Of a stretch of 64,000 bases of DNA, positions 42,975 to 62,958 are shown piece after piece; within the stretch, counting starts at the first letter, position 1, and the number at the start of each line of letters is the position of its first letter. A program made the translations under genes and the position numbers. This DNA comes from Ktedonobacter racemifer DSM 44963 (GTDB taxonomy: Bacteria; Chloroflexota; Ktedonobacteria; Ktedonobacterales; Ktedonobacteraceae), in the NCBI RefSeq assembly GCF_000178855.1, contig NZ_ADVG01000002.1:2604001-2668000 (forward strand), read 5' to 3'. The notes under the pieces were generated by a model. It searched no databases. It saw only the letters and a program-made list of their open reading frames with translations, and was not told the origin of the DNA.

Positions 42975-43290
42975 GGTGTTTCCTTGTTTGGTGCCCCGAA
43001 GGGCCTCCGTTTTCACGGGTAAAGCTCACCTCGACAACGTGTGCAAGCGGTTTGTTGGAAAGCGCACTGGCTTCTCCCTCTACACCTTTTAACGCTTCCC
43101 CGCAGAGGTTCAGGCTGGTGAAGCACCTGAACGTGCCTATGGACATCGGCTGTGCCGCATTCGCTTGCAACGGAGCCCGATGGGAGGAGCATGCTCCTCC
43201 CCTGGCTGAGTCTGCTCATGTCTCGGGCCTGCGAACGGCGCGAGCGCCCCTCGCAAGCCCCCGCATTCGATGCGGGGGTACATGACCCTA
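42975..43290 (-). ncRNA. IscB omega-RNA (HEARO-type) region
   Basis: The 314-bp non-coding stretch upstream of iscB is full of stems on the minus strand: a 9-bp GC hairpin near the 5' side (43258-43266 with 43270-43278), enclosed by TCATGT/ACATGA pairing; a perfect 20-nt palindrome GGGAGGAGCATGCTCCTCCC (43182-43201); and GTTCAGG/CCTGAAC (43108-43114 with 43126-43132). This is where IscB omega-RNAs are known to lie, with the guide at the 5' end. The guide would then come from the sequence just beyond 43288, which is the end of the neighbouring gene. Confidence 0.75.
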
Positions 43291-59964: not shown

Positions 59965-61029
59965 CTAGCGTTCGTCTCCGTTGTAGATGCGAATATAACT
60001 ACGATAGCGGTGCGTATCAATCACATCATCCTCAACGGCCTGAATAATAGCACAGCCCTCTTCGTCGATATGGTTACAATCGTTAAAGACGCATTCGCCC
60101 AGGTAGGAGCGAAACTCGACAAAGCAGCGCGGAAGATCCTCTGGCGAGACATCCCAGGCGGCGAGGGCGCGAATACCCGCCGAGTCCGCCAGCCAGCCAC
60201 CAGAAGAAAGCGGGTAGAGCTGCGAGCCGGTCGTCGTATGCCGACCCTTGCCCGTCGCCTCGCTAATCAGACCCGTACGGATCGCCATCTCTGGCTCGAT
60301 AGCGTTCACCAGCGACGATTTACCCACGCCTGAAGGCCCGGTAAAGAGAGTAGTGCGATCCTGCAAGATCGTACGCAACTCTACTATTCCCTGTCCATCT
60401 TGCGCACTGGTCCAGATGACGGGATAGTCCAGCTTGGCGTAGAGATCAGCAGCCTCATCAACACGCGAAGAATGAGGAAGATCGGCCTTATTAAGACAGA
60501 TGATGGCGCGAAGTTGCGCCGCCTCACAGATGACGAGGTAGCGATCCAGAAAAGCGAAATGCGGCTCTGGCTGGGCCACCGACAGCACGATAATCACCTG
60601 GTCAAGGTTTGCCAGCAGTGTCTGCGGAATCGCTTTACGTTCCGTTGAGCCAGCGTCCAGGCGCGAGAGCTCGCTCTGGCGCGGCAGAATCTCTTCGATC
60701 AGGCCTGTACTCTCATCAAGCTTGCGCAGCCTGACATAATCGCCTGGCGAGAGGCGTGACTGAATAGGATTTTCGGGTTCAAGTGCGGGTTTATTATTTT
60801 TCTCACGTTCACGTTCGGCGCGTCGCAACTGATACTCATTCAGCTTGCGCCCTTTGGCGACAGCCTGGGTGCTCTGCGACTGGACGCGTGCGAAGGCTTT
60901 CTTTAATTTTCCGCGCAGCGTACAACGAAAGACGCCTGTGTCAGTGTGAACGTCATAGATGCCATGTGCTCCATTGAGCACAACACCGGTAAGCAAAGCC
61001 GGATCATCAATCAAGCTGTTCCCTCCCAA
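59965..61029 (-). CDS. rsgA: Ribosome small subunit-dependent GTPase A
   Basis: A 354-residue circularly permuted GTPase: G4 (NKAD) and G5 (TSAQ) come before G1 (GPSGVGKSSL) and G3 (DSAGI), as in all RsgA proteins. A C-terminal zinc knuckle (ECVFNDCNHIDEEGC) is present. The N-terminal OB-fold is interrupted by a charged insertion of about 35 residues (QLRRAEREREKNNKPALEPENP). It helps late 30S ribosome maturation. It stands alone on the minus strand. Confidence 0.95.
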   Translation of the reverse strand: MGGNSLIDDPALLTGVVLNGAHGIYDVHTDTGVFRCTLRGKLKKAFARVQSQSTQAVAKGRKLNEYQLRRAEREREKNNKPALEPENPIQSRLSPGDYVRLRKLDESTGLIEEILPRQSELSRLDAGSTERKAIPQTLLANLDQVIIVLSVAQPEPHFAFLDRYLVICEAAQLRAIICLNKADLPHSSRVDEAADLYAKLDYPVIWTSAQDGQGIVELRTILQDRTTLFTGPSGVGKSSLVNAIEPEMAIRTGLISEATGKGRHTTTGSQLYPLSSGGWLADSAGIRALAAWDVSPEDLPRCFVEFRSYLGECVFNDCNHIDEEGCAIIQAVEDDVIDTHRYRSYIRIYNGDER

Positions 61030-61139
61030 GGAATTGCAGAAAAACGGCAGCCATACTGCCAGGCAGACATAGCCATCTCTTGAAGAGAGGCATGTTGCAC
61101 TGGTTCATTGATAGAAGAATGGCGCGCTACAAACAACGG

Positions 61140-61475
61140 CATGAAGGTGTCTGCCACGTGGGAGGGAGTGTCGACCTCTCAACTGGGGAAGCACTACGTT
61201 GAGAGCCTTTTCCAGTCAACCCATGGCCTCCTTATGCGAAAACCAACCCCTTTCGGGGGCGGCTAGCGCTCACGCGCTCAGGTTTTCGGAGAGGCATGAC
61301 CGGAAGCGATACAGACAGGCAATACTAGCGTGCGCCAGGTACCTGCTGAACCAGGAGAATCAAGGGAACCTGGCGGGCGAAAGACTGTCTGTAACACTCG
61401 CCTCATGCCGGACAGACAAGGTGCATTCAAGCACACAGTAACAGATCTTGTGCTTTTGCATAGAACTGCACCTCC
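61140..61475. ncRNA. Strongly structured non-coding region (candidate RNA)
   Basis: Perfect pairings: CTCTCAAC 61176-61183 with GTTGAGAG 61198-61205; CGAAAACC 61237-61244 with GGTTTTCG 61281-61288, closing a three-way junction with two inner hairpins (CCCC/GGGG 61247-61258; AGCGC/GCGCT 61265-61278); ACAGACAG 61311-61318 with CTGTCTGT 61385-61392, enclosing CGCCAGGT 61333-61340 with ACCTGGCG 61368-61375; and GGTGCA 61420-61425 with TGCACC 61467-61472. GTCTGT 61387-61392 can pair instead with ACAGAC 61412-61417. The strand is not proven. It could be an orphan omega-RNA, a regulatory leader or another RNA. Confidence 0.5.
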
Positions 61476-61700
61476 TTTAAACTGGCCAGGCCAGAATTTG
61501 AACGAACGGTTCCTCGTACTCCAAGCATACTCGGAACAAATCGTTTTTGTCAACGTTCGCTCTTCTCATTATCGGCATTTCGCCAAAATTCATTTGCTTT
61601 GCAAGGCTCAAGCAAATAGTGACCCATAAAAAGAGTTTTCAACAGTTCTTAAAAAGAGAGGAGAATGTAGACAAAGCGTGGCAATATGCCCATAAAGTCC

Positions 61701-61722
61701 ATTCTCATAGACACATGAGAAT
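61701..61722 (+). repeat. Subterminal hairpin of the TnpB element (left end)
   Basis: ATTCTCAT at 61701-61708 pairs with ATGAGAAT at 61715-61722 around AGACAC. IS200/IS605 elements carry such short hairpins near their ends for recognition by TnpA. Confidence 0.5.
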
Positions 61723-61779
61723 AAATGTTCTATACCAGAAGAAAGAAGGGGTATTGACGTCTATCAGGAGTGGTGGGCA

Positions 61780-62958
61780 ATGATTCGCGCGCATAAGATA
61801 CGCCTGCATCCAACAGAAGAACAGAAAGGCTATTTTGTCAGAGCTGCAGGTGTTTCTCGCTTTACCTGGAACTGGGCACTGGCAGAATGGAACCGGCAGT
61901 ATCAAGCGGGCGAGAAGCCAACTGCTTTGAAATTGAAGAAGCAATTCAACCAGATCCGACGGCAAGAGTACCCCTGGACCTGGGAGGTCACCAAGAATGC
62001 TTCCGATCAGCCATTCCTCGACCTGGCAAAAGCCTGGGCCGCCTATTTTGAAGGCTTGAAAACGGGAAAAAAGACCGGTCGGCCCACATTCAAGAGCAAG
62101 AAGAAAAGCAAACTGAGCTTTTATCTGGCCAATGATCAATTTGAGCTTGGGGACCATCGGATCTGGATACCCAAACTCGGCTGGGTGAATATGGCAGAGT
62201 CGTTGCGCTTTGTGGGCAAAGTGACAGGCGCGCGCATTACCAAAACGGCCGACTGGTGGTTTGTGTCCATCCAGGTCGAACTCCCGGATGCGATCCCGGC
62301 GAAGAAACCGGCTGCGTGTGGCATCGATGTCGGACTGAACCGACTGGCAACCTTGAGTACCGGCGAGGGATACGAGAACCAAGCCTTCCTCAAAACAGCG
62401 CTCAAGAAACTTCGTCAGGCGAACAAGCGGCTCCATCGCCGCAAACTGGGCTCAAAAAACCGGGAGAAAGCTCGCAGACAGGTGGCACGGCTGCATTATC
62501 GGATTGCGTGTCTGCGTGATGACGTGCTCCATAAGCTGACGACCCAGCTTGCTAACTGCTATGGGATCATCGGCATTGAGGATCTCCATCTCAAAGGGTT
62601 GCTGAAAAATCGCACGCTGGCTCGGTCATTTTCGGATGCGGCGTTAGGCAAACTGCTTGCTCTGCTTACCAGCAAGGTAGAGCAGCGAGGCGGGCAGGTG
62701 ATCAAAGTGGATCGCTTCTTTCCATCGAGTAAAACCTGCCATGGTTGCGATTGGAAGTGGGAAACCATGCAGTTGTCGGACCGCGTGTTCCTCTGCCAGA
62801 ACCCCACATGTGCGTATTATCAATTCGGGCAGGAGAGAGATCAGAACGCAGCGTTGAATATCCTGGGTGAAGCCCTCCGCCTGATCGGGCTCATTGACCA
62901 GGCCGTCTCCGGTACTGGCTCGGACGAAGACGCTAACTTGGCTGTGGACGCGGGGTAA
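61780..62958 (+). CDS. tnpB: TnpB RNA-guided nuclease (IS200/IS605 OrfB, Cas12 ancestor family)
   Basis: A 392-residue protein. The N-terminal HTH (KIRLHPTEEQKGYFVRAAGVSRFTWNWAL) is typical. RuvC residues Asp183 (GIDVGLNRLA), Glu267 (IGIEDLHLKGL) and Asp354 (ERDQNAALNI) are all there. The zinc ribbon has Cys320, Cys323, Cys339 and Cys344; the second pair is spaced CxxxxC instead of CxxC. AGGAG lies upstream of the ATG. Known TnpBs cut DNA with an omega-RNA made from the 3' end of the element. Confidence 0.95.
   Translation: MIRAHKIRLHPTEEQKGYFVRAAGVSRFTWNWALAEWNRQYQAGEKPTALKLKKQFNQIRRQEYPWTWEVTKNASDQPFLDLAKAWAAYFEGLKTGKKTGRPTFKSKKKSKLSFYLANDQFELGDHRIWIPKLGWVNMAESLRFVGKVTGARITKTADWWFVSIQVELPDAIPAKKPAACGIDVGLNRLATLSTGEGYENQAFLKTALKKLRQANKRLHRRKLGSKNREKARRQVARLHYRIACLRDDVLHKLTTQLANCYGIIGIEDLHLKGLLKNRTLARSFSDAALGKLLALLTSKVEQRGGQVIKVDRFFPSSKTCHGCDWKWETMQLSDRVFLCQNPTCAYYQFGQERDQNAALNILGEALRLIGLIDQAVSGTGSDEDANLAVDAG

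Follow-up and report, generated by a model that had tools for sequence, protein, structure and literature searches.

A putative translation-dependent attenuator in the 5' leader of rsgA in Ktedonobacter, interrupted by a mobile cloverleaf repeat

In the 64,000-nucleotide stretch of Ktedonobacter racemifer DNA analysed here (the window), rsgA, encoding the ribosome small-subunit-dependent GTPase, lies on the minus strand at 59965 to 61014 and starts with TTG (TIGR00157, E 8.8e-69, above the cut-off); its Shine-Dalgarno (SD) sequence, GGGAGGGAA, occupies 61019 to 61027. Between 60950 and 61750 there is a single match to a sigma-70-type promoter, on the minus strand at 61524 to 61553 (TTGACA, an 18-nucleotide spacer and TATGCT, with the -35 element at 61548 to 61553; score 10/12), and nearly all relatives have a TTGACA(AA)-N17/18-TATGCT/TATCCT promoter at the same place. 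Judged from the sequence, the promoter and 5' leader of rsgA together span 61553 to 61014. A TnpB element (61628 to 62958) is inserted just upstream of this promoter; its left end lies at about 61628, where its other genomic copies begin too, and its left 130 bp or so has about 10 close copies (85 to 92%) elsewhere in the genome. An earlier note had singled out positions 61140 to 61475 as an undescribed structured RNA and had correctly placed them outside the TnpB element.

RNA folding of 61140 to 61475 gave -137 kcal/mol on the plus strand (z -5.3) and -136 kcal/mol on the minus strand (z -4.0), with 0 of 100 shuffled sequences as stable in either case, so strong pairing above chance is present on both strands. 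Perfect inverted repeats with arms of at least 7 bp number 8, compared with 2.7 ± 1.6 in shuffles (1 of 200 reaches 8), and those with arms of at least 8 bp number 4 against 0.8 expected. Arms of 5 and 6 bp show no excess over shuffles (40 versus 42 and 15 versus 11); the "more than six pairings of 5 to 8 bp" first reported therefore hold for arms of 7 bp and longer but are at chance level for the shorter ones, and such a count is only partly informative. Two mutually exclusive stems do share the strand 61386 to 61392, which can pair with either 61310 to 61318 or 61411 to 61417, and the reported three-way junction corresponds to 61228 to 61297.

Relatives were gathered through the flanking gene rsgA (TIGR00157), and their upstream DNA was compared with the window. 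Across the family this DNA matches 61401 to 61507 at about 70 to 96%, so the conserved signal is tied to rsgA, which is read on the minus strand. The first 100 nucleotides or so of the leader (61401 to 61499) are present in 21 Ktedonobacteraceae genomes, always as a single copy upstream of rsgA and never elsewhere, yielding 21 distinct leader sequences, all at rsgA loci. A covariance model of this 5' module has exactly one match in each of the 21 family genomes and no match in any other genome of the order, genus g13 included; in g13 and the order's other families, the DNA upstream of rsgA likewise lacks the leader element. In g13 (L042, L043), a similar promoter (TTGACAAAG...TGTAATCTG) precedes rsgA, yet without the conserved leader module. 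A core-pattern scan of 84,980 species returned matches in 18 Ktedonobacterales only (Ktedonobacter, Dictyobacter, Thermosporothrix, Tengunoibacter, Ktedonosporobacter, and metagenome assemblies). A search of the K. racemifer genome with 61297 to 61500 found no credible second copy, which indicates that this part is not a repeat. Read in the rsgA sense, the elements in relatives follow the order promoter TTGACAAA-N17/18-TATGCT; AAATTCTGGC..GCCAGT (hairpin P1); AAGGAGGTGCA..ATG (SD and start of a short upstream open reading frame, uORF); about eight variable codons; GTGCTTGTATGCACCTTGTCTACCC; GAGGGTAA; a CCAGG/CCTGG hairpin; and TTCCCTCC-GCACGGTAGACA...ACCGTGTTTTTTT...GGAGGGAA-TTG, where rsgA starts.

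The uORF occupies 61360 to 61461 on the minus strand, encodes 33 codons (MQKHKICYCVLECTLSVRHEASVTDSLSPARFP), and begins with ATG behind a near-perfect SD (AAAGGAGGTG, 61469 to 61478) whose GAGGTG is invariant in 17 of 17 aligned leaders. The statement that no open reading frame covers the region is thus contradicted: an SD, an ATG and an open frame of 33 to 44 codons occur in all 19 genomes tested, and the other two frames mostly close earlier. In codons 10 to 17, synonymous sites are more conserved than nonsynonymous ones (pS 0.03, pN 0.15), which points to a constraint on the RNA and not on the peptide, and the flanking codons vary freely. On this comparison it is the nucleotides of the uORF that are constrained rather than its peptide, and the feature that has been kept is a translatable frame.

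Around the uORF start, hairpin P1 (CUGGC...GCCAG, 61482 to 61494) lies inside a near-invariant block, AAATTCTGGC...CCAGT, in the 17 aligned leaders. The 5' arm of P2 (AGGUGCA, 61467 to 61473) overlaps the uORF SD and pairs with the 3' arm (UGCACCU, 61419 to 61425), which masks it; P2 is paired in 99% of the cells of the 17 leaders. Since P1 and P2 are almost invariant, no covariation can be drawn from them. Directly 3' of P2 and within the uORF lies s1 (61411 to 61418; UGUCUGUC here, UGUCUACC in relatives), a putative switch strand that is complementary to s2 (61148 to 61155; GGCAGACA here, GGUAGACA in relatives) just 5' of rsgA. The distance between them is some 90 to 140 nucleotides in most relatives and about 255 in the window. 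In an alignment of excised windows placed by hand, s1:s2 is paired in 96% of 136 cells, compared with 27 to 43% when the strands are slid. Two of its pairs show double compensatory changes (A-U to G-C in Ktedonobacter, G-C to A-U in L027), the remaining changes are mostly wobble, and 4 of 500 shuffles reach the same covariation score. By our estimate an 8-nucleotide complement between two such stretches arises by chance about 0.15 times per sequence; because a lone complement is not rare, the weight of s1:s2 rests on its conservation and compensation.

Downstream, the anti-SD CUCCCUCC (61161 to 61168) pairs with the rsgA SD in 92% of cells of the same hand-placed alignment, with a C-G to U-A change in L026 and L040. 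Relatives have a terminator hairpin, CACGGU...ACCGUG-UUUUUUU, whose 5' side overlaps s2, so that s1:s2 and the terminator, which have GGU in common, are mutually exclusive; the terminator stem carries a C-G to U-A change in L032 and L108. Compensatory changes are few overall (two pairs in s1:s2, one in the terminator and one in anti-SD/SD), and the covariation expected of homologues of a structured RNA is accordingly present but modest for this part of the leader. A competing local partner of s1, P4 (61397 to 61404; GAGGCGAG here, GAGGGUA in relatives), is weak in Ktedonobacter, and as L028 breaks it, P4 (UACCC/GGGUA) is retained as a weak competitor. An inner stem, P3 (AAGCAC/GUGCUU), was rejected, being broken in L029, L033, L035, and L036.

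Thermodynamic folding of whole leaders gives s1:s2 a mean pair probability of at least 0.83 in 13 of 21 leaders, and of 0.94 in the window. Blocking the sequence from the uORF start through s1, in imitation of a ribosome, moves s2 into the terminator, the probability rising from 0.00 to 0.82 in L030, from 0.01 to 0.93 in L036, and from 0.07 to 0.95 in L033, and most leaders with a scored terminator behave in this way. L028 and L031 fold to the terminator with or without masking, and in L034 and L040 the terminator stays down when s1 is masked. Little or no s1:s2 is seen for L026, L032, L035, and L091, of which L035 (an inserted base) and L091 (a wrong s2 position) are badly registered and have uninformative folding values.

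Most of 61176 to 61400 is genus-specific and absent from other genera. The strand common to the two mutually exclusive stems of the earlier note, ACAGACAG (61385 to 61392), is one such element and can pair with either s1 or CUGUCUGU (61311 to 61318). Hairpin P5 (61333 to 61375) is formed by CGCCAGGU (61368 to 61375) and ACCUGGCG (61333 to 61340); by eye, a CCAGG...CCUGG pairing is retained at this site in most relatives. A further genus-specific hairpin, CUCUCAAC/GUUGAGAG (61176 to 61205), has a counterpart in L026, UCUCAGCC...GGCUGAGA, with a compensated change seen by eye. The platform before rsgA is also rebuilt in Ktedonobacter: only a weak hairpin forms at s2, and another terminator-like hairpin, TGGCAGTATGGCTGCCG-TTTTT, specific to the genus, is found at 61040 to 61061, whereas relatives have CACGGT...ACCGTG-TTTTTTT at s2. 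With the clear terminator lying away from s2, the sign of control is less certain in this genus.

The three-way junction at 61228 to 61297 on the minus strand, previously described as an outer stem closing two GC hairpins, has CGAAAACC/GGTTTTCG as its outer stem. A whole-genome search with the region identified it as a member of a dispersed repeat with the layout GTGCCTCTYCGAAAACC-hairpin-hairpin-GTTGGTTTTCGCATAAGGAG and the end sequence CTTCTTATCCGAAA.... Search-based counts, several of them lower bounds, give at least 146 copies in the K. racemifer genome, at least 118 to 124 in each sister species (more than 115 per Ktedonobacter genome), at least 124, 76, and 35 in three further genomes (G022, G008, and G019, respectively), and few or none elsewhere. 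For many of the copies in the 400 to 460 kb around rsgA of three species of Ktedonobacter, the corresponding site in a sister genome is cleanly empty, and insertions duplicate about 3 bp of the target (e.g., CTA, GTA). Copies at shared sites often differ by a hairpin unit of about 19 bp (68, 87 to 88, or 105 bp); at L137:5078-5165, L136:227-297, and the orthologous sites in L157, L159, L179, and L180, whole units of this size differ, as if hairpins had been gained or lost or copies replaced. All stems of the repeat covary strongly: an alignment of 57 copies, fitted to the model, has double changes at 13 pairs, and 0 of 500 shuffles match its covariation.

Within the leader, this copy occupies the loop of the hairpin formed by UCCGGUC (61298 to 61304) and GACUGGA (61211 to 61217). 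In L026 (G001), by eye, the equivalent hairpin UCCGGU...ACCGGA closes directly and the repeat is absent; on this comparison, the cloverleaf repeat is an insertion into the loop of the leader hairpin. The dispersed copies resemble miniature inverted-repeat elements (MITEs). Like MITEs and REP/Correia-type palindromic repeats, the cloverleaf is about 70 bp long and abundant, with terminal inverted repeats, a duplication of about 3 bp, and precise empty sites; unlike them, its internal hairpins covary as well and are gained or lost in units of about 19 bp. Two further copies (L014:1492-1560 and L015:1492-1575) lie between genes of the same direction, before argD-like and thiolase-like genes, with the end AAGGAG at or near the place expected for the SD of the following gene. 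At 42995 to 43016, just 3' of a HEARO RNA on the minus strand, a weak match (GTGAAAACGGAGGCCCTTCGGG) to the 5' part of the repeat is probably due to chance. No earlier report of the cloverleaf repeat or of miniature inverted-repeat elements in Ktedonobacter was found in the open-access literature. The earlier note had read the wrong strand and fused two things, the rsgA leader and a mobile repeat. Its suggestion of a switch-like leader was right in kind and misplaced in strand, as the leader is that of rsgA on the minus strand, and the suggested remnant of another element fits 61228 to 61297.

A leader ORF with an SD and a conserved frame (19/19) thus coexists with mutually exclusive antiterminator/terminator or anti-SD pairings, the combination that characterizes uORF-dependent attenuators. 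We consider it probable, on these sequence comparisons, that the region is a long 5' leader of rsgA on the minus strand that acts as a translation-dependent attenuator, interrupted in Ktedonobacter by the mobile cloverleaf repeat. Ribosomes loading on the uORF would open P2 and cover s1; s2 would then be free to form the terminator and the SD-masking hairpin, switching rsgA off. When initiation on the uORF is poor, P2 would stay closed, s1 would capture s2, the terminator would be blocked, and rsgA would be on. We infer both the expression sign and the signal: the "on" state follows from the folding test, in which s2 mostly went over to the terminator once the stretch between the uORF start and s1 was masked, and ribosome (30S) loading is the suggested signal, instead of a particular peptide or amino acid, because the uORF peptide itself is not conserved. 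Such a signal would create a feedback loop for RsgA, a 30S maturation factor. More tentatively, the leader RNA may gauge the ease of 30S initiation on a near-perfect SD, independently of the peptide, and so set the amount of RsgA as a direct feedback on ribosome assembly.

Other readings explain parts of these data. A ligand- or protein-binding riboswitch, or an autoregulatory rsgA leader with an incidental or secondary uORF, is a rather unlikely alternative: the near-invariant 5' block AAATTCTGGC..CCAGT and P2 do resemble a binding module, and the uORF peptide is not conserved, but every genome tested retains an SD, an ATG, and a frame open for at least 33 codons, whereas the other two frames usually run into an early stop, and no Rfam riboswitch matches. 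The uORF might instead encode a sequence-specific arrest peptide, with the conserved core xCTLST, that stalls on a drug or an amino acid; a C-T-L-S core does occur in nearly all leaders, but P2 and s1 require these very nucleotides, Leu is changed in L026 and L028, and synonymous sites there are the more conserved while other codons vary freely. Following the codon test this reading, which we regard as highly improbable, was set aside.

Nor is it at all likely that the region is a patchwork of mobile-element debris whose inverted repeats have no regulatory role. One segment is indeed a mobile repeat and 61176 to 61400 is mostly unshared with other genera, yet the conservation of 61401 to 61499 and of the s2/anti-SD/SD platform at the rsgA locus extends over 11 genera and includes compensatory changes. 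Scarcely credible is an orphan omega-RNA of HEARO or TnpB type on the plus strand, as once proposed. HEARO and TnpB do occur in the window, and the region has GC hairpins under an outer stem, as does the HEARO/IscB omega-RNA (RF02033), but beyond this outline it shares nothing with the HEARO RNA at 43019 to 43286 (minus strand), the resembling part is the mobile repeat, and both strand logic and genomic context differ. A covariance search of the region with HEARO and the other Rfam models gave no credible match even at E ≤ 5. Its homologues lie upstream of rsgA and not beside iscB or tnpB, conserved together with a minus-strand promoter, and the TnpB element does not begin until about 61628. 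Rfam 15, applied to the window, the region, and 13 relatives, gave nothing above the gathering score for the leader, its only hits being tRNAs and the HEARO RNA, which is the single above-threshold non-tRNA match in the window; Rfam has no family for the rsgA leader.

Should the proposed attenuator be real, it offers a testable idea, namely that ribosome loading on a uORF sets the cellular capacity for small-subunit assembly. The cloverleaf is a separate and very abundant repeat family, whose covarying internal hairpins vary in number at the same site, and its position here illustrates that a mobile element can occupy the loop of a regulatory hairpin and leave the conserved parts intact. In the open-access literature, we found no report of leader-RNA control or attenuation of rsgA. 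In kind, the rsgA leader resembles the known uORF-dependent attenuators, of which Bacillus subtilis vmlR (PMC9226507) and the Escherichia coli topAI uORF (PMC12121999) are examples. These two are reported to have a short translated leader ORF, alternative stems, and a terminator and/or SD masking downstream, as the rsgA leader would. The rsgA leader differs in its putative target, a 30S assembly GTPase, in its lack of a conserved stalling peptide, in its confinement to the Ktedonobacteraceae, and in a platform that combines a terminator with an anti-SD/SD pairing.
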